A DNA stretch of 39,680 bases from Blastocatellia bacterium (lineage in GTDB: Bacteria > Acidobacteriota > Blastocatellia > HR10): NCBI GenBank assembly GCA_035573895.1, contig DATLZR010000156.1, positions 1 through 39,680 on the forward strand. The letters run 5' to 3'. The notes below the pieces were generated by a model, which did not search any database, was not told the origin of the DNA, and saw nothing but the letters and a program-made list of their open reading frames with translations. Positions 26,806-39,126 of this stretch are shown in pieces. Each line of letters begins with the position of its first letter. The first letter of the stretch is position 1. The position numbers were made by a program, and so were the translations under genes.

Positions 26806-26880
26806 GCGGGCGTGACGCAACGGTAGCGTATCAGCTTCCCAAGCTGAGTGTTGCGGGTTCGAATCCCGTCGCCCGCTCCA
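26806..26880 (+). tRNA. tRNA-Gly (anticodon CCC)
   Basis: A complete 75-base cloverleaf with encoded CCA (26878-26880). The acceptor stem pairs GCGGGCG with CGCCCGC; the D stem is ACGC/GCGT; the anticodon stem TCAGC/GCTGA encloses the loop TTCCCAA with anticodon CCC at 26838-26840; the T arm is GCGGG-TTCGAAT-CCCGT. It reads the Gly codon GGG. It stands alone between the mtaD group and the peptide-modification locus. Confidence 0.96.
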
Positions 26881-26914
26881 TATTTTTTGATCGTCCCAAT
26901 ATCCCCCGGTGGGT

Positions 26915-26950: not shown

Positions 26951-27247
26951 ATGGACACCATATTCGAGAAGTCGCCCATGATCGTCTCGCGAAAGATCGG
27001 AGAGGAATACCTGCTTGTCCCCCTCCGCCGCGAGGCAGCCGATCCGGAGAAAATCTACACGCTCAACGAGGTCGCAGCCTTCATCTGGGAGCAGATTGAC
27101 GGAACCCGATCCGTCCAGCAGCTTGTGGCGGCTGTACTCGACCATTTTGACGTGACCGCGGATGAAGCCCGGAGGGATGTCATTGAGTATCTGGAACTGT
27201 TGTCGCGCATCGGAGCGATCGTGTCCCGCCAAAGGGACACCATTTAA
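26951..27247 (+). CDS. PqqD family peptide-recognition protein
   Basis: A 98-residue PqqD-like protein. Proteins of this fold (the RiPP recognition element) bind the leader of a precursor peptide and hand it to a radical SAM enzyme. Visible are the SPMIVSRKIGEEYLLVPLRR start, the family core IYTLNEVAAFIWEQIDGTRS (about 35-54), SVQQLVAAVLDHFDVTADEA and the helix VIEYLELLSRIGAIV. The ATG at 26951 is preferred to an in-frame GTG at 26909 that overlaps the -35 region. The ribosome-binding site is weak. It lies 14 bases before the radical SAM gene, the expected partner. Confidence 0.88.
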   Translation: MDTIFEKSPMIVSRKIGEEYLLVPLRREAADPEKIYTLNEVAAFIWEQIDGTRSVQQLVAAVLDHFDVTADEARRDVIEYLELLSRIGAIVSRQRDTI

Positions 27248-27261
27248 TCTCGAGGTTCACG

Positions 27262-28539
27262 ATGGGAAATTCGAGCATCCCTCAACTGAGCTATCGGGCC
27301 TTCGGCGAGCGCCTTATGGCGATGGCGTCGGCCCGCCGCATCCCCCTGTTTGGAGAGATCGAACTGACCTATCGCTGCAATCAAAACTGTGCCCACTGCT
27401 ACGTCAACCTTCCCCCAGGAGATCGAGAGGCAAAAGGCCGGGAGATGACCGCTGAGGAAATCTGTCGGATTATTGATGAGATCACCGACGCCGGATGTCT
27501 CTTTTTGTTGCTGACCGGGGGCGAGCCGATGCTTCGCCCCGACTTTCTCGACATCTATGCTTACGCGAAGAAAAAGGGGTTGCTCATCACAATCTTTTGC
27601 ACTGGGACGCTCGTCACGCCCCAGATCGCCGATTACTTGGCCCAGTGGCCCCCTTACAACATTGAGATCACCATCTATGGAGCGACTGAACAAACGTATG
27701 AGCGCGTGACCGGACTCCCTGGGTCTTATCGGAAATGCTTTGCAGGAATTCGGCTGCTGCTGTCTCGGGGATTGCCGGTCAAACTGAAGACGGTGGTCAT
27801 CTCCCTGAACAAACACGAATTTCAGCAAATGGAACAAATCGCTCGCGATCTCGGCGTGGAGTTCAAATGGGACGGACATATCAATGCCCGCATTGATGGT
27901 GGACGCAAACCACTCGATGTCCGGCTTGATCCTGAAGAGGTAGTGGCCCTTGATCTGGCAACCGAAAAGAGAATCACCGAGTGGCGCGAGTTTTGTGACC
28001 GCTTGCCGCGTTCCTATCGAACCGATCGGCTCTACTCGTGCAGTGCTGCCCTCACCGCCTTTCATATTGATCCCTATGGGCGGATGACCCCCTGTACCAT
28101 GGCGCGACTTCACGGCTACGATCTCCGGCAGGGCAGCTTCCGTGATGCCTGGGAAGGATTGTTCGCCGATCTCCGGAAGCGAAGACGGCCCCCGACTGAT
28201 CGCTGCGCCGATTGCGATTTGATGACCATCTGCTTTCAGTGCACGGGTTGGTCCCAGCTCGAACACGGAGTGGAATGGGCACCGGTTGACTTCCTGTGCG
28301 AGGTCACTCATGCTCGCGCCGAGGCTCTCGGGCTGCCGCATGCGCGGGGAATCTGCTGCGACGTCATCGAGAACATCAAAACACGGAAGCGACGCCGCCT
28401 GCACGGCTGTGCGGTCGGAGTCCATGCCGCACCGGCGCGGGCAACAGGAGAAATAAGCAATGAAGAAAAAACCCTATCGCAAACCGGAAATCCAGGAAGT
28501 CCGATTAGTCCTTCAGGAATCCGTCATGATGGTCTGTAA
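27262..28539 (+). CDS. Radical SAM/SPASM peptide-modifying enzyme
   Basis: A 425-residue radical SAM protein of the PqqE-like group. The first iron-sulfur cluster site is C39-x3-C43-x2-C46 (ELTYRCNQNCAHCYVN); the SAM-binding TGGEP is at 85-89. The C-terminal SPASM region supplies Cys 260, 278, 315, 318, 324, 327 and 346 for auxiliary clusters. Enzymes of this type form thioether, C-C or similar crosslinks in precursor peptides. The start has a weak GAGG site. The last 50 residues are Arg-rich, then low in conserved features, and overlap a short peptide gene in another frame (28460-28539). The substrate is inferred to be that peptide. Other SPASM roles, such as protein maturation, are possible. 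Confidence 0.93.
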   Translation: MGNSSIPQLSYRAFGERLMAMASARRIPLFGEIELTYRCNQNCAHCYVNLPPGDREAKGREMTAEEICRIIDEITDAGCLFLLLTGGEPMLRPDFLDIYAYAKKKGLLITIFCTGTLVTPQIADYLAQWPPYNIEITIYGATEQTYERVTGLPGSYRKCFAGIRLLLSRGLPVKLKTVVISLNKHEFQQMEQIARDLGVEFKWDGHINARIDGGRKPLDVRLDPEEVVALDLATEKRITEWREFCDRLPRSYRTDRLYSCSAALTAFHIDPYGRMTPCTMARLHGYDLRQGSFRDAWEGLFADLRKRRRPPTDRCADCDLMTICFQCTGWSQLEHGVEWAPVDFLCEVTHARAEALGLPHARGICCDVIENIKTRKRRRLHGCAVGVHAAPARATGEISNEEKTLSQTGNPGSPISPSGIRHDGL

Positions 28540-28624
28540 GGTCGCCGACCTTGGGGGACCTGGACAACCCGTTTCCGGGTGTAAGGGCCAAATAGGACAA
28601 CAGTGCGCCCTTTTGGGGACATAA
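28460..28624 (+). CDS. Candidate RiPP precursor peptide (54 residues, three Cys)
   Basis: A short gene with a good Shine-Dalgarno (AGGAG, 9 bases before the ATG), starting inside the radical SAM gene in another frame and ending 73 bases before the next gene. The N-terminal half is a charged leader (MKKKPYRKPEIQEVRLVLQE); then come SVMMVCKVADLGGPG and the tail QPVSGCKGQIGQQCALLGT. Cys are at 26, 41 and 49; a Gly-Gly pair at 32-33 precedes Pro34. The KPYxKPEIxEV leader and the CK motif resemble, from memory, short peptides beside radical SAM/HprK-like genes in other bacteria. Its place between modifying enzymes supports its being their substrate. The product and its modification are unknown. 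The overlap keeps expression coupled to the radical SAM gene. Confidence 0.72.
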   Translation: MKKKPYRKPEIQEVRLVLQESVMMVCKVADLGGPGQPVSGCKGQIGQQCALLGT

Positions 28625-28651
28625 GGAGAGCACCTGGTCGCCAGCTTCCCC

Positions 28652-28675
28652 TATAACCGGAGCTATAACCGGAGC
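28652..28675 (+). repeat. Tandem 12-bp repeat before the methyltransferase gene
   Basis: Two exact copies of TATAACCGGAGC in the 73-base gap between the precursor gene and the methyltransferase-S26 gene. Each contains TATAAC, a possible -10 element, though I see no matching -35. It may be simple duplication or a protein-binding site. Confidence 0.6.
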
Positions 28676-28697
28676 GAGATAATCACGGGGAGCACGG

Positions 28698-29960
28698 ATG
28701 AGCGTACCTCGGAGACCTCACATGCAGACAGAGGCCGCTCGCTGGCTGTCACTTGTGGCAGCCAAGTTCAATGCTCCCGAAGAAGTTGCCTCCCACACGG
28801 AGACAGTCGCCGAAGGGTTTGAAGCTTGGGAACGAGAGGTCGTTCAACAGTTCATGACATGCCCCGGACGACTTCTCGATGTGGGCTGCGGCGCAGGTCG
28901 CGAGGCTTTCGCCTTCGCCGAACGGGGCTTTGAGGTCGTCGCCATTGATATTGCCGAGAAGATGATCGAGCAGGCTAAAGCCCTGGCTGCCGAGCGGCAA
29001 GTGAACATCGAATTTCACACGATGAGCGTGACCGAATGCGCTTTCCCGCCTCAGTCCTTTGACTACATTTTCTTCAGCCGGGCCGTCTATTCCTATATCC
29101 CCACGCGGGCGCTTCGTCTCGCCACGTTGGCCCGACTCCGCCAGATGCTCAAGCCGTCGGGACTGTTGATCCTCTCCGGCTACTTCGTCGCGCGACGTCG
29201 CCTTCTCTCCCGGAGAGCGCTTCGCCATTTCGGCCAATGCCTGGCAGCGACACTGTGGGGACGGTGGACAGCGACGGAACCGGGCGACACCCTCATTGGT
29301 CGCGTGTCCGAACGGAGCGACTTGAACAAGCCCTGCTTCGTTCACATATTCCCCAGTCTCACGGCCATCGCTGAGGAACTTCGTCAGGCGGGATTTTCCA
29401 TCCTCCGAGGGGGCACGCACTTTTATTTCGTCGCTCAGCCCGCGCCCGAGGGGAACGGCGACGTTCGAGTGGTGACAAATGATGCCTTCGGCCACCTGAT
29501 ATCGGAACTGCTCGCCCAGGGACTTCGAGTGCGCTTCACCGTCAGCGGAACGAGCATGCGCCCCTTCCTTGAAGAAGGGGACATCGTCACCCTCGCCCCG
29601 GTCACGCCAGCGGACCTGAAGATTGGCGACATCGCGCTGGTGCGTCGGTCTCCGAATTCGCTCACGCTGCACCGTCTTGTCAGAAAAATGAGGGGATCAC
29701 AGCCACTCCTCGTTTTCAAAGGAGATGCCGTCAACGAAAGTGATGAGCCGGTGGCCCCTCATCAGGTCATCGCCCGGGTGACTGAAATTCAGAAGACGCA
29801 TAAGCGCATCTCTCTTCAGGAAGGGATGGCCATTGTCCGGAACTGGTTTCTCGCTCAGAAATCAATCCTTCGAGCCACTGGCCGACGGGCACTTCATCGG
29901 GTGATTTTGCGGTCGGTTCCGGCGGACACAGGGACTAACTCTCCCGCAAAAGAGCCATGA
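28698..29960 (+). CDS. SAM methyltransferase fused to an S26 (signal peptidase-like) domain
   Basis: A 420-residue two-domain protein. Residues about 55-245 are a class I methyltransferase: LLDVGCGAGREAFAFAERG (motif I, 59-77), AIDIAEKMIEQAK, SFDYIFFSRAV and a later LKPSGLLILSGYF. Residues about 275-365 are an S24/S26 serine peptidase-like domain: TVSGTSMRPFLEEGDIVTL puts the nucleophile at Ser286, and LTLHRLV gives His325, as in Ser/His (SipW/Sec11-like) signal peptidases; FKGDAVNESDEPV completes the family pattern. No transmembrane anchor is evident, unlike true signal peptidases. In context it may methylate and/or cleave the Cys-rich peptide. The stop overlaps the next start by 4 bases. 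Confidence 0.88.
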   Translation: MSVPRRPHMQTEAARWLSLVAAKFNAPEEVASHTETVAEGFEAWEREVVQQFMTCPGRLLDVGCGAGREAFAFAERGFEVVAIDIAEKMIEQAKALAAERQVNIEFHTMSVTECAFPPQSFDYIFFSRAVYSYIPTRALRLATLARLRQMLKPSGLLILSGYFVARRRLLSRRALRHFGQCLAATLWGRWTATEPGDTLIGRVSERSDLNKPCFVHIFPSLTAIAEELRQAGFSILRGGTHFYFVAQPAPEGNGDVRVVTNDAFGHLISELLAQGLRVRFTVSGTSMRPFLEEGDIVTLAPVTPADLKIGDIALVRRSPNSLTLHRLVRKMRGSQPLLVFKGDAVNESDEPVAPHQVIARVTEIQKTHKRISLQEGMAIVRNWFLAQKSILRATGRRALHRVILRSVPADTGTNSPAKEP

Positions 29961-30916
29961 CACAAGCGCCCCTTACTCCTTTGGGAGGGAATAGGGAGGC
30001 ACCGGGAGTGTCCTTTGATCAGGTGTGGCTGGAGATTGCGGAGACAAGAATTCGGATTCGCCCATCGGATCATCGGATGAAGATCGGCGTCACCCCGGAA
30101 TATTTCCCCTTTCTTCGAGAGACACCCTGCGACGCGGCCGATATTGACCTTACGGTCCATTGCCAGGAGATCCCGCAGATTCCCCTCACGCTATCGCTAT
30201 TTGACTCCGGTGGAGTATGGACGCTGGGACTGTCGGGAGATCGGTTTATCTTTCACTTCAGGACCCTGGCAGCCGATCCGCCGCTTTACAAGCTGGCCGT
30301 CATGTCGCGCGATTTCTCAAAAGGCGACGTGTTCATAAGACCTGACACAGGCCTGGTGATCGGTAATGTCCTCTATCCCCTCGAATTCCCTCTGGACGAG
30401 CTGTTGGTCAATCATTGGCTGGCCAACGGTCGGGGAATCGAGCTTCATGCCTTTGGAGTCTGCTTTGATGGTAGAGGTCTGGTCTGTTGCGGTCAGTCAG
30501 GAGCAGGAAAATCTACAATGGCCCGGCTCTGGCAGGAGGTCGGCTGTGGGCAGATCCTCAGCGATGACCGGGTGATTTTGCGCCTCCAGGATCCCCCGAA
30601 AGCCTTTGGGACTCCCTGGCATGGCGACGCAGGAGTTGCCTCCAGCACAGGCTGCCCTTTGATGGCTCTCTTCTTTCTCGAACACACGCCTGAAAACCGC
30701 CGGCAACGGCTCACACCCGCTCAAGCCTCTTCCCTTCTACTGGCCCGTTCCTTCCCTCCCTTCTGGGACAAAGAGAGGATGGAAGCGACCCTCGACGTGA
30801 TCACCCGTATCGTCGAGCGCGTTCCCTGTTACCGCCTGGGCTTTGTCCCCGATCAAAGCATTGTTCACTTCCTGAAATCCCTCGCTTACGAAATTAATAG
30901 GCATAACCGCCCGTAA
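29957..30916 (+). CDS. HprK-like P-loop kinase
   Basis: A 319-residue protein whose C-terminal half resembles HPr kinase/phosphorylase: the P-loop CCGQSGAGKSTMARLWQEVG (G179-T187), the acidic ILSDDRVIL about 16 residues later, and the AFGTPWHGDAG motif. The N-terminal 150 residues are beta-rich and not HPr-kinase-like. HprK-related kinases are found next to PqqD-like proteins, and homologues phosphorylate lasso peptides on Ser in some pathways. Here the peptide lacks a C-terminal Ser (it ends LLGT), so Thr54 or Ser39, or a carrier protein, would be possible targets. It is coupled to the methyltransferase-S26 gene (ATGA overlap). It closes the locus; no transporter follows. Confidence 0.85.
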   Translation: MTQAPLTPLGGNREAPGVSFDQVWLEIAETRIRIRPSDHRMKIGVTPEYFPFLRETPCDAADIDLTVHCQEIPQIPLTLSLFDSGGVWTLGLSGDRFIFHFRTLAADPPLYKLAVMSRDFSKGDVFIRPDTGLVIGNVLYPLEFPLDELLVNHWLANGRGIELHAFGVCFDGRGLVCCGQSGAGKSTMARLWQEVGCGQILSDDRVILRLQDPPKAFGTPWHGDAGVASSTGCPLMALFFLEHTPENRRQRLTPAQASSLLLARSFPPFWDKERMEATLDVITRIVERVPCYRLGFVPDQSIVHFLKSLAYEINRHNRP

Positions 30917-31415: not shown

Positions 31416-31456
31416 CCGACCTGAATCAAATTTCAGAACAGACGGAGGAGGTGCCT

Positions 31457-31780
31457 ATGGCATTGAATATTCGTCCTTTGCACGATCGGGTCGTTGTCAA
31501 GCGATTAGAGGAGCAGGAGCAGGTTCGGGGTGGCATCATCATCCCCGATACAGCAAAAGAGAAACCCCAACAGGGCGAGGTCGTTGCCGTCGGTAACGGC
31601 AAGATCCTGGAGAATGGAACCAAAGTCCCCCTGGATGTGAAAGTGGGTGATCGGGTTCTGTTTGGTAAGTATTCGGGAACGGAAGTCAGGATTGACGATG
31701 AGGAGTATCTCATCATGCGGGAAGACGAGATTCTTGCCGTTATAGAAGCAGCGGCCAAGTCCAAATCAGCGAGCAAGTGA
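31457..31780 (+). CDS. groES: Co-chaperonin GroES
   Basis: The 10-kDa heptameric lid of the GroEL chaperonin. 107 residues from the ATG at 31457, which has a strong ribosome-binding site (GGAGGAGG). A GTG two codons earlier is in frame but lies in the spacer. Family features: [19 protein letters not shown], the mobile loop [53 protein letters not shown]. It is slightly longer than most members because of a KSKSASK tail. groEL follows 34 bases later. Confidence 0.98.
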
Positions 31781-31802: not shown

Positions 31803-33440
<1,638 letters not shown>

Positions 33441-33971: not shown

Positions 33972-36521
33972 GTGACGCCAGCGGTGCGCTTTTTGCTCGT
34001 GATCGGAGTGACAGCGGCTGTGGTGGTTCCGTGCGGAATGACGTGGGGGTCTGCCGTCAGGGGGAACGAACGTCCTCCGTCGTCCGCGCCGACAAAGCTG
34101 TCCCTCATCGTTGAAGGACGGGGGCGGCATTCGCCCTCGATGACTTTTGATGATCCTCTCGATCTGTCCGGTGAGATCATCGAAGGCCTGGAGGGTCTTC
34201 ATCCTGCTCCCACTCAAGGGATCGTTGCTCCCCTGACGCCGGCCACGGCGGATTTGGACGATGACGGTCAGCTCGATCTCCTTATCAAGTACGCGACGTC
34301 GGCAGGCGAAGCACTCACGCTGAGGAGGGCCAGTACCCCCACTGTTACTTCCCGCGGGCATAAGACGGAACCATTGCCGGCCCGATCGGATCGGCACGGG
34401 AATACACGGCTTCGCTTAGCCGGACCAAAGCGCTTTGCCTCGACCGCTCGGCCCGCTCTGAACGCCCAGCCAAATATCCTGACGGTCACCACCACGAGTG
34501 ACAGCGGCGAAGGCTCACTCCGTGACGCCCTCATCCGGGCAAACATGAGTACGGGACCGGATACAATTGTCTTCGCCATCCCGACTTCTGATCCTGGATT
34601 CGCCGAGGGAGTCTTCACTATTCGTCTTTTAAGCCCGCTTCCACCTCTGACCGGCGGAGGGATCACCATTGATGGAGCATCGCAGATAACGGTCACGGGG
34701 CCGACCAACGGGACCCATCCCGTGATCAAGGTGACGGCAGCAGATGACGGTGTCGCTTCTGGTTTCGTTCTGCAAAGCGACAACAACACTATTCGTTCGC
34801 TCATCATCTCCGGTTTCGATGTCGAAGAGGGAGCCGGGATCGTTATCACTGGTGATGTCTCGGGCAATGTCGTCGAAGGATGTCTCATCGGCACAACGGC
34901 GGATGGGCGGGCTGCAGAGGGCAACACGATTGGCGTGAAGGTGGAATCCGGCGCCCGCAATACGACCATTGGTGGGACGACGGCCGAAGCCCGCAATGTC
35001 ATCTCCGGCAATGGCGTCGGCATCGCGCTCATCGGAGAGGCGACGACCGGGACGCGCATCGTCGGCAACAGAATCGGACAGGCTGTCACTGGAGATCCCC
35101 TGGGAAACCGCCGAGCGGGAATCCTCATCACCGATTCGAGCAACAACGTCATCGGCGGAACATCCCCTGGTGAAGGGAACGTTATCGCCCATCAAGAAGG
35201 CCCCGGCGTCGAAATCACCGGCACTGCCATCAACAATTCCATCCTGGGAAACTCCATTTTCGATAATGGTGGGCTCGGCATTGATCTTGGCGGTGATGGT
35301 CCGACCCCCAACGACGAAGGGGATGCGGACACGGGACCCAACAACCGGCAAAACTTTCCCGTGATCACCGACGTAGCCGTTCGCGGCACCCGGGTGACGA
35401 TTGCGGGGACACTCGATACTGTCGCGGGAGACGTTCGCGTGGAGTTTTTCTCCGACAGAGCGTGCGATCCATCGGGCTTTGCCGAGGGTCTCCAATTCCT
35501 CGGAGCGATCATGGTGACGGCGACGGGCGATCCCGCTCAGCCCGCTCGCTTCAGTGTAGAGTTGCCCGCGCCCGTGGCGAGATTTTTCGTCACGGCGACG
35601 GCCACCGATTCCGCTGGTAACACATCAGAATTCTCTTCCTGCCAGCCATCTAACACGGCTCCGATTGCTGATGCGGGGCCGGATCAAAGGGTAGACGAAG
35701 GAACGGTGGTCACGCTCGACGGCACGGGCAGTCGTGATCCCGATGGCGATCCCATCACTTTTGAGTGGCGGCAGGTAGCAGGACCACCGGTCACGCTCTC
35801 CGATCCGACCTCGCCGCGTCCCACCTTCACCGCGCCGATCGTGAGTCCGACGGTCTCTCCTCCGGTAGTCCTGACGTTTGAGCTGGTGGTGAGCGACGGA
35901 CGATTGCTCAGTGATCCCGATCAGGTTCAGATCACCGTGAATCGCCGCCCGGTAGCCAATGCTGGCCCCGATCAAACCGTGGATGAAGGAGCGGTGGTCA
36001 CACTCGACGGCACGGGCAGTCGTGATCCCGACGGCGATCCCATCACTTTTGAGTGGCGGCAAACGGCTGGTCCTCCGGTCACGCTCTCCGATCCCACGTC
36101 GCCACGACCACGATTCACAGCGCCCTCGCTGTTGCTCAACGAGCCGACGTCGCTTCGACTTACCTTCTCGCTCACAGTGAGCGATCGGCGACTGAACAGC
36201 GCACCGGATACCGTTGACATCACCGTGCAGAATGTGGTGCGCATGGACGACTCCGGTCGGAGCGGTAACCAGTTGAAGATCAACCTGGCCACGAATGCCT
36301 TTGAGTTTCGCATCGCCCGAACGGGTCAACTGTTCACCGGAACGATCACGACGATTGTTCGAGCGGCAGGTGATGGGGGGAGCGTCCGCATGACCGGTTC
36401 GGGCGCTGGGGGCGCGCGGCTGGAGGTCACGATTGATACGCGCCGAGGTGTGGGACTGGCCGTTCTCACTGTCGGTCGAGACGCATTTGTGATCTTCAGC
36501 CCGGATATGCGGCGCGAGTGA
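33972..36521 (+). CDS. Secreted CSLREA/beta-helix protein with two PKD-like domains
   Basis: An 849-residue exported protein. The GTG at 33972 has GGGAGG upstream and begins a signal peptide (VRFLLVIGVTAAVVVPCGM, about residues 5-23). Around residue 165-190 is a CSLREA-like motif (VTTTSDSGEGSLRDALIRAN), followed by a right-handed beta-helix with NosD/polymorphic-toxin-like repeats (NNTIRSLIISGFD, SGNVVEGCLIGTTADGR, NNVIGGTSPGEGNVIAHQ; about 260-440). After a beta-sandwich region come two PKD/REJ-like domains, each beginning GPDQ and containing VVTLDGTGSRDPDGDPITFE (about 560-660 and 660-755). The last 90 residues are a separate beta-rich domain. Such proteins lie on the cell surface and bind carbohydrate or other matrix; the substrate is not evident. 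It shares PKD-like elements with the following OMP gene. Confidence 0.85.
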   Translation: MTPAVRFLLVIGVTAAVVVPCGMTWGSAVRGNERPPSSAPTKLSLIVEGRGRHSPSMTFDDPLDLSGEIIEGLEGLHPAPTQGIVAPLTPATADLDDDGQLDLLIKYATSAGEALTLRRASTPTVTSRGHKTEPLPARSDRHGNTRLRLAGPKRFASTARPALNAQPNILTVTTTSDSGEGSLRDALIRANMSTGPDTIVFAIPTSDPGFAEGVFTIRLLSPLPPLTGGGITIDGASQITVTGPTNGTHPVIKVTAADDGVASGFVLQSDNNTIRSLIISGFDVEEGAGIVITGDVSGNVVEGCLIGTTADGRAAEGNTIGVKVESGARNTTIGGTTAEARNVISGNGVGIALIGEATTGTRIVGNRIGQAVTGDPLGNRRAGILITDSSNNVIGGTSPGEGNVIAHQEGPGVEITGTAINNSILGNSIFDNGGLGIDLGGDGPTPNDEGDADTGPNNRQNFPVITDVAVRGTRVTIAGTLDTVAGDVRVEFFSDRACDPSGFAEGLQFLGAIMVTATGDPAQPARFSVELPAPVARFFVTATATDSAGNTSEFSSCQPSNTAPIADAGPDQRVDEGTVVTLDGTGSRDPDGDPITFEWRQVAGPPVTLSDPTSPRPTFTAPIVSPTVSPPVVLTFELVVSDGRLLSDPDQVQITVNRRPVANAGPDQTVDEGAVVTLDGTGSRDPDGDPITFEWRQTAGPPVTLSDPTSPRPRFTAPSLLLNEPTSLRLTFSLTVSDRRLNSAPDTVDITVQNVVRMDDSGRSGNQLKINLATNAFEFRIARTGQLFTGTITTIVRAAGDGGSVRMTGSGAGGARLEVTIDTRRGVGLAVLTVGRDAFVIFSPDMRRE
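35694..36120 (+). repeat. Tandem duplication of a PKD-coding segment
   Basis: Segments beginning at 35694 and 35982 (offset 288 bases, 96 codons) are nearly identical for about 135 bases, including GACGGCACGGGCAGTCGTGA and the ATCCCATCACTTTTGAGTGG stretch. The identity extends to synonymous positions, which points to recent duplication or gene conversion. Confidence 0.85.
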
Positions 36522-36600: not shown

Positions 36601-39126
36601 ATGGTGAAGCCGATGAATCCACCAAGGGGAACGACCGTGCGACGCACAACGAGACGTCTGGCTCTGATGCTCCTTTTGCTGATCCTCGATCTGGACCTCC
36701 CGATCGCGCTCACCGTGAGCGTTCGGGCAAGCGGCCCTCCGCAGCAACGCCGGGCAGTCGAACCCGCGAATCAAACTGCCACCACCGTCACGGGAGGAAC
36801 AAGCACCGGCCTTTTCGCCACCTGGAGTGGTCGAACTCTGCGTCGGACGGAGTTCACTCTGGGATTTTCCTGGAATAATTTCGACCGGGATCCCGGCGAT
36901 GTGGATATCAACCAGATTCCGGTGAGCTTCACCTATGGGGTGACGAGTCGGGTGGAGCTGTTCGCCAATGTGGCTTTCTTCCAGCAGGTGACGGCGCGAC
37001 AGCCCTTTGCTCTTTCCGGCTATCAGTTCAACGGTGTGCGGTCGGCCTTTGGCGGAGATCCATTTGTTGCCTTTGGCACGCCGGTGGGAGGGCGCGAGGG
37101 CGCGGCCGCGTTTTTCCCCTTGAGTGGATCGCTCCTTGGCGGCGTCTTGCCTCCGCCGGGAGCCGCCTTCGGACCGGCGATCCTGGCCGACCGGCCGAGC
37201 TTCCTCAACGATCTTCCCTTCTTCGGTCCGGCCACCTTCGATGTCCTCACCCGCAATTTCCAGATTCGCCAATCGGCCAATGGACTGGGCGACATCACTC
37301 TGGGAACGAAGATCGCCCTCACTGATCCGGACGGCCTTTTTAATCTTGCTCTCCTCGGCTTCGTCCGCCTGCCCTCAGCCCGCAATTTTCACGCCATGTC
37401 GCACGGACGAGGAGCGGGAGCTACCGATTATGGCATCGTCCTCATCAACGGGCAGAATTTCTTCGGCAACCGATTGAGGCTCGTCCAGAATTACGGCTAC
37501 GTGCGTTCAGGCGACATTGAGCGCAACGGCATCAAACTTCTGGATCGCCGGGACCAACTGCTGCTCAACGCCGGCGTGGAGATCGCGCCGGTCCAGTCAC
37601 TCGTTCTCACGGCAGAGTGGGCCAACACGTTCTACATTGGAGGCGGAACGCCGCGACTCAACTCGGTCAATCCGTCGGAGGTGATTCTGGGCGCTCGGCT
37701 CTATGCCTATGAAGGACGGATTCAACTGGGCGGAGCCTGGCGACGATTGCTCAATCAGGCCGATCAAAAAACGATTCCCGTTTTCGTCCCCGGTCAGGGC
37801 ATCCGGCAGCTCGACATCAGTTCGGGCGATGTGAACGGTTTTGCCTTCAATTTTGCTCTGGCGCGGCGAGCGTCGCTCATCCCCCTGCCGCCACCGAATC
37901 GAGCGCCCGTGGTTTCTATTCTGGCCGAACGGACGGAGATTCGAGAGGGTGAGACGGTTCGGCTGGAGGCGCGGGCCGTTGATCCCGATAACGATCCCCT
38001 CTCGCTGGCGTGGTCGGTCGAACCGGCGACCGTTCCGGCGACGGTGCTTAAGCCGGAAGTTCCCGGTGCTCCTTTGAGCGAGCGGGTGATTTTCGATGCG
38101 ACCGGTGTGAATCCGACGCCGGGAGCGCCTCCGGTCACGGTGACAATTACGGTGACAGTAGATGATGGTCGGGGCGGAACAGCGACGGATCGCCGAACGA
38201 TCAGCGTCGCCTCACCGGTTGTAGCTCCGCCGCCTCCTCCACCTCCTCCGCCACCTCCGCCAGCCAATCGGCCGCCGCAGATTCAAATGATTGAGATCAC
38301 GCCGATCGGTGCCCCGCAAGTCCCCGGTCAGATCACCGATGGTGACCTGCTGCGCCTGCGAGCTGTGGCAGCCGACCCCGACGGCGATATCCTCATCTAT
38401 CGCTGGGGATCAACGGCCGGACGACGCCTGGGCACCGGCAGTGAGATCACGCTCGATACCACTGGCGTCACGGCTGGCCCCGGTGCTCCGCCGGTGACTG
38501 TCACCATCACGTTGACGGTGGATGACGGTCGAGGAGGAACCGATAGCGATACCCGCACCATTCGCGTGCTGTCGGTCGCCCGACCACAAGCTCTCGCGCA
38601 GACGCCCTTGATTTTCGTCCGGCTCAATGCCGCGCGGGTAACGAACGTTCACAAAGCGATCCTGGATATCGTGGCCGAGAGGCTCAAGGCAGATCCGCGC
38701 GCGCAGCTTGTCATTGATGGGCATCAGGATCCCGCCGAGCGACCTACCCTCGCTCGCACGCGCGCGCAAAACGCGGCGATCTATCTCGTTCGGGAGCGCG
38801 CCATTGATCGGCGGCGGATCATTCTTCGGGATTTCGGCAGTCGCCAGCCGCATCCGAGCGGACGCCGGGCAATGAATCGTCGGGTGGAAATGTGGATCGT
38901 CCCGCCGGGTGCCGAGATGCCGCCGGATCGCGCGGCCACCCCAATCCCGTTTGAACCAACTGTTCAGCGACCGCCGCGGCGTCGTGCGCCCGCCGCTCAA
39001 CCGCGATCACCGTCCGAACGACGACCGACCTCCCAGCCAAAAGCTCGTCCGCCTGCGACGGCGCGGCCCACCGCAGCGAGATCGGCTCAGGCTCCGCCCC
39101 GACAGTCGCAAAAACGGCAGCAATAG
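36601..39126 (+). CDS. Outer-membrane beta-barrel protein with two PKD-like domains and an OmpA C-terminus
   Basis: An 841-residue envelope protein. The signal peptide is LALMLLLLILDLDLPIAL (about residues 20-37); the start may be the ATG at 36601 or 36613. Residues about 60-430 are beta-barrel-like, with alternating strands and aromatic girdles (FTLGFSWNNFDRD, VSFTYGVTSRVELFANVAFF, QSLVLTAEWANTFYIGGG). Two PKD/Ig-like domains (about 435-540 and 560-660) share VTVTITxTVDDGRGGT and are separated by a 12-Pro run. Residues about 675-770 are an OmpA peptidoglycan-binding domain (AQLVIDGHQDPAERPTLART, RRAMNRRVEMWIV). The last 60 residues are Arg/Pro/Ala-rich. It would tie the outer membrane to the cell wall with Ig-like spacers. 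It lies 79 bases after the CSLREA/PKD gene and is probably co-transcribed. Confidence 0.85.
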   Translation: MVKPMNPPRGTTVRRTTRRLALMLLLLILDLDLPIALTVSVRASGPPQQRRAVEPANQTATTVTGGTSTGLFATWSGRTLRRTEFTLGFSWNNFDRDPGDVDINQIPVSFTYGVTSRVELFANVAFFQQVTARQPFALSGYQFNGVRSAFGGDPFVAFGTPVGGREGAAAFFPLSGSLLGGVLPPPGAAFGPAILADRPSFLNDLPFFGPATFDVLTRNFQIRQSANGLGDITLGTKIALTDPDGLFNLALLGFVRLPSARNFHAMSHGRGAGATDYGIVLINGQNFFGNRLRLVQNYGYVRSGDIERNGIKLLDRRDQLLLNAGVEIAPVQSLVLTAEWANTFYIGGGTPRLNSVNPSEVILGARLYAYEGRIQLGGAWRRLLNQADQKTIPVFVPGQGIRQLDISSGDVNGFAFNFALARRASLIPLPPPNRAPVVSILAERTEIREGETVRLEARAVDPDNDPLSLAWSVEPATVPATVLKPEVPGAPLSERVIFDATGVNPTPGAPPVTVTITVTVDDGRGGTATDRRTISVASPVVAPPPPPPPPPPPPANRPPQIQMIEITPIGAPQVPGQITDGDLLRLRAVAADPDGDILIYRWGSTAGRRLGTGSEITLDTTGVTAGPGAPPVTVTITLTVDDGRGGTDSDTRTIRVLSVARPQALAQTPLIFVRLNAARVTNVHKAILDIVAERLKADPRAQLVIDGHQDPAERPTLARTRAQNAAIYLVRERAIDRRRIILRDFGSRQPHPSGRRAMNRRVEMWIVPPGAEMPPDRAATPIPFEPTVQRPPRRRAPAAQPRSPSERRPTSQPKARPPATARPTAARSAQAPPRQSQKRQQ

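Follow-up and report, generated by a model that had tools for sequence, protein, structure and literature searches.

The window analysed here, a stretch of 39,680 nucleotides from contig DATLZR010000156.1 of a Blastocatellia bacterium (Acidobacteriota; assembly GCA_035573895.1), carries at positions 26951-30916 five intact genes that are closely packed or overlapping on one strand. Judged from their sequences, they very probably form a locus for a ribosomally synthesized and post-translationally modified peptide (RiPP), in which a 54-amino acid precursor is accompanied by a discrete PqqD-type RiPP recognition element (RRE), a radical S-adenosylmethionine (SAM)/SPASM peptide maturase, a methyltransferase/S26 peptidase fusion and an HprK-like kinase. 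A first-pass annotation of the same DNA had described five tight or overlapping same-strand genes as a peptide-modification locus with the small Cys peptide as its substrate; the layout is confirmed, and the assignment is supported by a peptide that is conserved in 50 loci. We put at about even the chance that this family is a distinct, multi-phylum RiPP class, defined by a radical SAM-modified core with three cysteines, a lasso-type kinase acting on a C-terminal Ser or Thr, and a signal-peptidase-type leader peptidase with interchangeable capping fusions (methyltransferase, acetyltransferase, nucleotidyltransferase).

The precursor peptide and its distribution

The precursor (MKKKPYRKPEIQEVRLVLQESVMMVCKVADLGGPGQPVSGCKGQIGQQCALLGT) is encoded at 28460-28624 on the forward strand; its gene overlaps the 3' end of the radical SAM gene by 80 nt, and a GGAG lies 5' of its ATG. 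It is a real, conserved precursor and not a chance open reading frame, nearly always lying beside the same enzymes. NCBIfam holds no model for it, and a peptide-only profile built from 14 peptides was run on 162 genomes of the same class and 396 genomes of Acidobacteriota, where it matched 11 of the former (Blastocatellia-like) and 36 of the latter (about 9%). Among 36 loci fetched around these matches with flanks of about 5 kb, a kinase gene was found near the peptide in 32 and a PqqD gene in 27; several of the loci in which a gene is missing are truncated at a contig end. The search for homologous loci that lack a conserved peptide, which the first-pass annotation had given as a refuting condition, left its claim standing, with a radical SAM gene near the peptide in 31/36. 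The order PqqD-radical SAM-peptide-HprK-S26 recurs in Acidobacteriota, Nitrospirota and Omnitrophota and partially in a Deltaproteobacterium contig, the distribution outside Acidobacteriota resting on ten loci.

Kinase and peptide also occur together at the level of genomes. With a threshold of 1e-40 for the kinase profile, 10 of the 162 mutually related same-class genomes contain both, one the peptide only, none the kinase only and 151 neither (Fisher test, 4e-15), and in the single peptide-only genome (G048) the locus lies on a contig that ends just after the peptide. The distance matrices of the radical SAM enzyme, kinase, PqqD and S26 proteins are correlated (r 0.65-0.85), and none of 2000 permutations gave values as high.

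Fifty complete peptides, which fall into 35 clusters at 60% identity, define the features of the family. All of them contain a leader motif [Y/W]xxP (Tyr in 45, Trp in 5), which is followed by any residue and then nearly always by Ile, Leu or Val, and normally lies 19-21 residues upstream of the first core Cys; in the window peptide it reads Y6-R-K-P9-E-I11 (28475-28492, forward strand, as for the features below). Counted from the motif Tyr or Trp, position 15 is Glu in 45/50. At least three core cysteines are present in every peptide and exactly three in 48, represented here by C26, C41 and C49 (28535-28606), and the last of them stands five residues from the C-terminus in 38 of the 50.

The C-terminal residue is a hydroxyl amino acid throughout, Ser in 48 peptides and Thr in two, both of the latter being in the genome of the window (Thr54, 28619-28621, the proposed phospho-acceptor). 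This compares with a combined Ser and Thr frequency of 0.24 in the peptide cores, and the last residue is the sole invariant hydroxyl, the other core positions examined being at most 0.52 Ser or Thr. The terminal Ser is written with both TCN (40) and AGC (8) codons, so that it is the amino acid which is conserved and not the DNA. The peptide profile could be biased in favour of Ser at its end; peptides whose profile match covers only residues 3-37 nonetheless end in Ser. The C-terminal Ser/Thr and the [Y/W]xxP motif, together with the Ser-His-Asp triad and the very close parallel to phosphorylated lasso and linear peptides discussed below, go beyond what had been noted in the first-pass annotation.

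The recognition element and the radical SAM enzyme

The first gene (26951-27247, forward strand; an in-frame GTG at 26909 offers a possible longer start) encodes a 98-amino acid protein that matches PF05402 at 2.8e-19, above the cut-off, and a discrete RRE is thus encoded in the cluster. Its residues R14, E19 and P24 are kept in 38-39 of 39 relatives. In lasso and linear polyphosphorylated peptide (LPP) systems, leaders with a [Y/W]xxP motif are recognized by RREs (PMC12710340; PMC13381572), and the role of adapter proposed earlier for the PqqD protein is supported.

The radical SAM/SPASM maturase (425 amino acids; 27262-28539, forward strand) was identified from Pfam matches (Radical_SAM, 2.1e-22; SPASM, 4.5e-5), its conserved cysteines and its relatives by profile. 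The triad C39/C43/C46 is present in 44/44 relatives, and the seven SPASM cysteines C260, C278, C315, C318, C324, C327 and C346 are kept in 42-44 of them. Among solved structures, the family profile finds its best matches in PqqE (8e-26) and in SkfB, a sactisynthase (2e-25), and the enzyme resembles mycofactocin and PqqE maturases with scores below the respective cut-offs. Crosslinking of the core is plausible because an enzyme of the radical SAM/SPASM type is combined with three conserved cysteines; that the product is specifically a thioether is a tentative reading of these sequences, to which we give somewhat less than even weight.

The kinase and its probable phosphosite

The HprK-like kinase (319 amino acids; 29957-30916, forward strand), whose gene overlaps that of the methyltransferase/S26 fusion by 4 nt, shares only the kinase core and the fold with HPr kinase/phosphorylase. 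Its score against the HPr kinase model PF07475 in a single-sequence scan was 11.3 bits, below the cut-off of 33.3, and a single-sequence search of the PDB was likewise uninformative; a family profile was required, and this matches HPr kinase at 1.1e-6. The AlphaFold2 model (pLDDT 93.7) adopts the fold common to phosphoenolpyruvate carboxykinase (PEPCK) and HPr kinase, with a Z of 11.5 over 125 residues against HPr kinase (root-mean-square deviation 2.9) and of 13.3 over 245 residues against PEPCK (5.5). The motif consists of H164, a P-loop at G179-T187 and D203-D204. H164, G179, G184, K185 and D203 are present in 42/42 relatives, D204 in 40 and G182 in 37 of these, and position 186 is Ser or Thr in all 42.

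A His-Lys-Asp-Asp motif is needed by lasso peptide kinases (PMC9266682), and the spacing in the window kinase is that of BsfK (H148-G163-G166-G168-K169-S170-D186-D187; PMC10368454) except for one residue; the analogy with lasso kinases drawn in the first-pass annotation is supported. Lasso kinases of the paeninodin type act on a C-terminal Ser, which is nearly all that their precursors have in common (PMC8498205; PMC9266682), and phosphorylation by BsfK is accelerated by its RRE (PMC10368454). By analogy with the paeninodin-type enzymes, it is fairly likely that the window kinase phosphorylates the C-terminal Ser or Thr of its peptide.

The probable leader peptidase and its fusion partners

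The fourth gene (28698-29960, forward strand) encodes 420 amino acids, with a class I SAM-dependent methyltransferase domain in its N-terminal part (28698-29440; PF13649, 4e-21) and an archaeal/SEC11-type S26 peptidase domain behind it (29463-29960). Weak NCBIfam matches of the former include the methyltransferase model for daptide RiPPs (5.6e-12, below cut-off). The Peptidase_S24/S26 signal of the latter was sub-threshold in a single-sequence scan; the family profile matches SEC11C at 1.5e-11, and in its AlphaFold2 model (pLDDT 84) the domain resembles signal peptidases and peptidases of the LexA-type fold, with Z of 9-11. The triad S286, H325 and D343 is kept in 31/31 relatives. The motif residues picked out by the first reading (C39/C43/C46, the SPASM cysteines, Ser286/His325 and the P-loop) were right and are conserved in relatives, and Asp343 is to be added to them.

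This triad corresponds to S29, H68 and D93 of LppS, which are required for leader cleavage of LPPs, where the leader is removed by an archaeal-type signal peptidase with the help of the RRE (PMC13381572). On this analogy the S26 domain is probably the leader peptidase. Where the LPP leader reads FET^ (^ marking cleavage), relatives of the window peptide mostly have [E/D/Q]-E-A at positions 14-16 from the motif Tyr; since LPPs are cut after residue 16 counted from that Tyr, cleavage of the window peptide is predicted, by analogy only, after S21 (S21/V22, 28520-28525).

The S26 open frame is shared with the methyltransferase in the window, with GNAT in loci L014 and L079 and with NTP_transf_5 in L015 and L017, and such interchangeable partners suggest capping of the new N-terminus of the product or of its phosphate. 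An S26 and a C25 peptidase likewise share one open frame in L027 and L028.

Relationship to known systems

Few phosphorylated RiPPs are known: apart from lasso peptides there are the recently described LPPs, whose clusters comprise an RRE, an archaeal-type signal peptidase and an HprK-like kinase (Popov et al., 2026; PMC13381572). The discrete PqqD-like RRE, the Ser-His-Asp archaeal-type signal peptidase and the HprK-like kinase are common to LPP clusters and the window locus, and the two families further have in common a YxxPx[hydrophobic] leader, a nucleotidyltransferase (NTP transferase) in some relatives and a frequent neighbourhood of polysaccharide genes. LPPs are, however, described as linear with no mention of a radical SAM enzyme (PMC13381572), are found only in Bacillota and are phosphorylated at Ser3. 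Their leaders read YxxPxVLxHQxIxFETxxS, of which the window family shares only YxxPx[ILV] and the Glu at position 15, while the equivalent of Ser3 (position 19) is mostly Gly or Ala. Unlike LPPs, the window family has a radical SAM/SPASM enzyme, three core cysteines, a C-terminal Ser or Thr and a peptidase that carries a fused methyltransferase or GNAT, and it occurs in Acidobacteriota and other phyla. Neither an NTP transferase nor an MsbA-like transporter is among the five window genes.

The phosphorylated lasso peptides (paeninodin, ThcoA, SyanA, pseudomycoidin and Bsf) resemble the window family in their discrete RRE (B1), [Y/W]xxPxL leader and HprK-like kinase with the same motif. Members of the paeninodin type have a C-terminal Ser as acceptor, which in the window peptide is matched by a Thr and in the family by Ser or Thr in 50/50, and in lasso clusters a nucleotidyltransferase is sometimes fused to the leader peptidase. 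The locus, unlike these, is without lasso cyclase and B2 peptidase and has a radical SAM/SPASM enzyme and an S26 domain instead. Membership of the lasso peptides was rejected, the PF00733 (Asn_synthase) matches of the genome being all on other contigs. The locus would resemble an LPP or phosphorylated lasso pathway in its working, with a radical SAM enzyme to form the core, but it belongs to neither: for each of the two, features by which that system is defined were looked for and are absent.

Systems based on radical SAM chemistry offer a second set of parallels. The StsA/StsB/StsC sactipeptides of Actinomycetota also combine a discrete RRE, a WxxP leader and a radical SAM/SPASM maturase. The StsA model gave a weak match to two relatives (7e-4, below cut-off) and none to the window peptide, and the window radical SAM enzyme reached 77 bits with the StsB model against a cut-off of 625. 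We know of no role for a kinase or an S26 peptidase in that system. SynChlorMet cassettes (NCBIfam ScmC-F) bring together a PqqD-like protein, radical SAM/SPASM enzymes and an HprK-like protein, with all models scoring far below cut-off here (ScmC 13.7 vs 125 bits, ScmD 35 vs 100, ScmE 74 and ScmF 73 vs 400). Three relatives, in which radical SAM and HprK-like domains occupy one open frame (L018:5962-7914, L019:1318-3597 and L020:3688-5634) within multi-radical SAM cassettes of metagenome-assembled genomes of Omnitrophota, Lentisphaerae and Aminicenantes, look nearer to SynChlorMet than the window does. The pyrroloquinoline quinone (PQQ) pathway shares an RRE (PqqD) and a radical SAM/SPASM enzyme (PqqE, the nearest solved structure by profile) that act on a small peptide, but the window differs from it in its kinase, S26 peptidase and Cys-containing core.

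The combination of genes appears to be undescribed in the searchable literature; no open-access paper was found that pairs HprK-like kinases with radical SAM RiPPs, which is weak evidence of novelty, as subscription papers and preprints were mostly outside the search. The family joins the RRE, kinase and peptidase of the lasso and LPP systems to radical SAM chemistry. If the family is indeed a distinct class of the kind outlined above, their toolkit for phosphorylation and leader removal would be portable, a module to be combined with core-forming enzymes of unrelated kinds. With precursor, probable acceptor and active sites named, the kinase site, the radical SAM chemistry and leader removal become directly testable, and the interchangeable peptidase fusions make the order of steps (cutting, then capping of the new N-terminus) testable as well.

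A second copy and possible cell-surface neighbours

The same genome contains a second radical SAM-peptide pair on contig C158 (L024:886-5987, minus strand), with a radical SAM enzyme 52% identical to that of the window and a peptide ending in TVGT. This peptide is directly followed by a probably secreted protein of 1168 amino acids with a C-terminal Peptidase C25 domain. Elsewhere in the genome, contig C30 (L133:6096-6560, minus strand) encodes an orphan PqqD-like protein, which has no obvious radical SAM gene as neighbour and is a candidate for the adapter of the C158 pair.

The peptide loci L026, L027-L031, L071-L073, L076, L087, L094, L097, L102 and L104 have beside them giant proteins in which a Peptidase C25 (gingipain-family) domain is present. 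A C25 peptidase as an obligatory partner was rejected, as one was near only 9 of the 36 fetched loci. Members of a Wzc/GNVR-like polysaccharide chain-length family lie near L014, L016, L017, L071, L082 and L083, as well as near L085 (Pfam-checked there), L086, L088, L089 and L092, and giant Kelch, SdrD or DUF11 proteins are also among the neighbours. Clustering of conserved neighbours was dominated by shadow open reading frames in this GC-rich DNA, and only Pfam-checked proteins were used. Together the C25 peptidases, giant proteins and polysaccharide genes hint at a cell-surface connection; capsule loci are likewise the setting of LPP and paeninodin clusters (PMC13381572).

Proposed pathway and alternatives

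We propose that the PqqD-like RRE would bind the leader through YRKPEI, as sequence and the lasso/LPP motif suggest, and hand the peptide to the enzymes. The radical SAM/SPASM enzyme would modify the Cys-containing core, most likely with thioether or other crosslinks, and the kinase would phosphorylate Thr54. The S26 domain, like LppS, would cut the leader in the cytoplasm with the help of the RRE, probably after S21, whereupon the fused methyltransferase would probably methylate the freed N-terminus, which is the weakest step. That the RiPP assignment and the roles of kinase and S26 domain are all jointly correct seems to us somewhat favoured.

What is shown here are the genes, with their conservation, co-occurrence and active sites, and several observations weigh against the proposal. 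The counts are not independent of one another, as the genomes are related. No exporter is conserved in the locus, as was already remarked in the first-pass annotation. An S26 gene lies near only 19 of the 36 fetched Acidobacteriota loci, so the peptidase is not obligatory in cis, and the methyltransferase is rare among relatives. The C158 locus consists of radical SAM enzyme, peptide and C25 protein without PqqD, kinase and S26. The genome has two peptides but one kinase, and the PqqD, kinase and S26 proteins encoded at the window locus may serve the second pair in trans. Finally, BsfK and LppK phosphorylate core Ser3 and not the C-terminus (PMC10368454; PMC13381572), so HprK-like kinases are not all tail-acting.

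This last point leads to an alternative in which the RiPP is the same and the kinase targets an internal Ser or Thr near the new N-terminus, the C-terminal Ser/Thr being kept for radical SAM recognition, as a terminal cap or for protection from proteases. The precedent of both Ser3 kinases and the presence of Ser or Thr at the positions two and five residues after the first core Cys in about half of the peptides speak for it, but the Ser3 equivalent is mostly Gly or Ala and no internal hydroxyl exceeds 0.52, against 50/50 at the last residue; we therefore hold an internal site to be unlikely, though it deserves consideration. It is improbable that the product partners the giant secreted C25 peptidases, for instance as activator, inhibitor or substrate, or owes its maturation to them: such proteins occur in or beside many loci, and one comes straight after the second peptide of this genome, but none was seen beside the window locus, and with flanks of about 5 kb only 9 of the 36 fetched loci of the phylum have one.

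Slightly more doubtful still is the idea that the HprK-like protein, instead of being a peptide kinase, assists the radical SAM enzyme or the protease as an ATPase or GTPase. Only its kinase core is recognizable by sequence and its fold is common to PEPCK, but the full His-Lys-Asp-Asp motif is conserved, and the proteins of lasso and LPP clusters with the same motif are proven peptide kinases. The least probable of these alternatives is a pathway to a peptide-derived redox cofactor of the PQQ or mycofactocin kind with an intracellular product. The presence of PqqD, the similarity of the radical SAM/SPASM enzyme to mycofactocin/PqqE maturases, below cut-offs, and the lack of a conserved exporter are consistent with it, but core sequence and spacing vary, the family is patchy (10-11 of 162 same-class genomes), and the kinase and variable S26 fusions look like lasso/LPP tailoring and not like cofactor assembly. 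The variable core and patchy distribution make the product more like a natural product than a cofactor, and with relatives often lying beside polysaccharide-export or giant secreted C25 genes, the suggestion in the first-pass annotation of a cofactor-like or intracellular peptide finds no support.

Genomic setting

Upstream of the locus lies a tRNA-Gly (CCC) gene (26806-26880), with 70 bp between its end and the PqqD gene. A genomic island at this tRNA is unsupported: its 3' end has no second copy in the window, and there is thus no sign of an integration site. Downstream lie groES/groEL-like genes, named from sequence (open reading frames 31451-31780 and 31815-33440), and beyond groEL follow two large, probably exported proteins (33972-36521 and 36601-39126) with PKD, Ig-like, beta-helix or OmpA domains.

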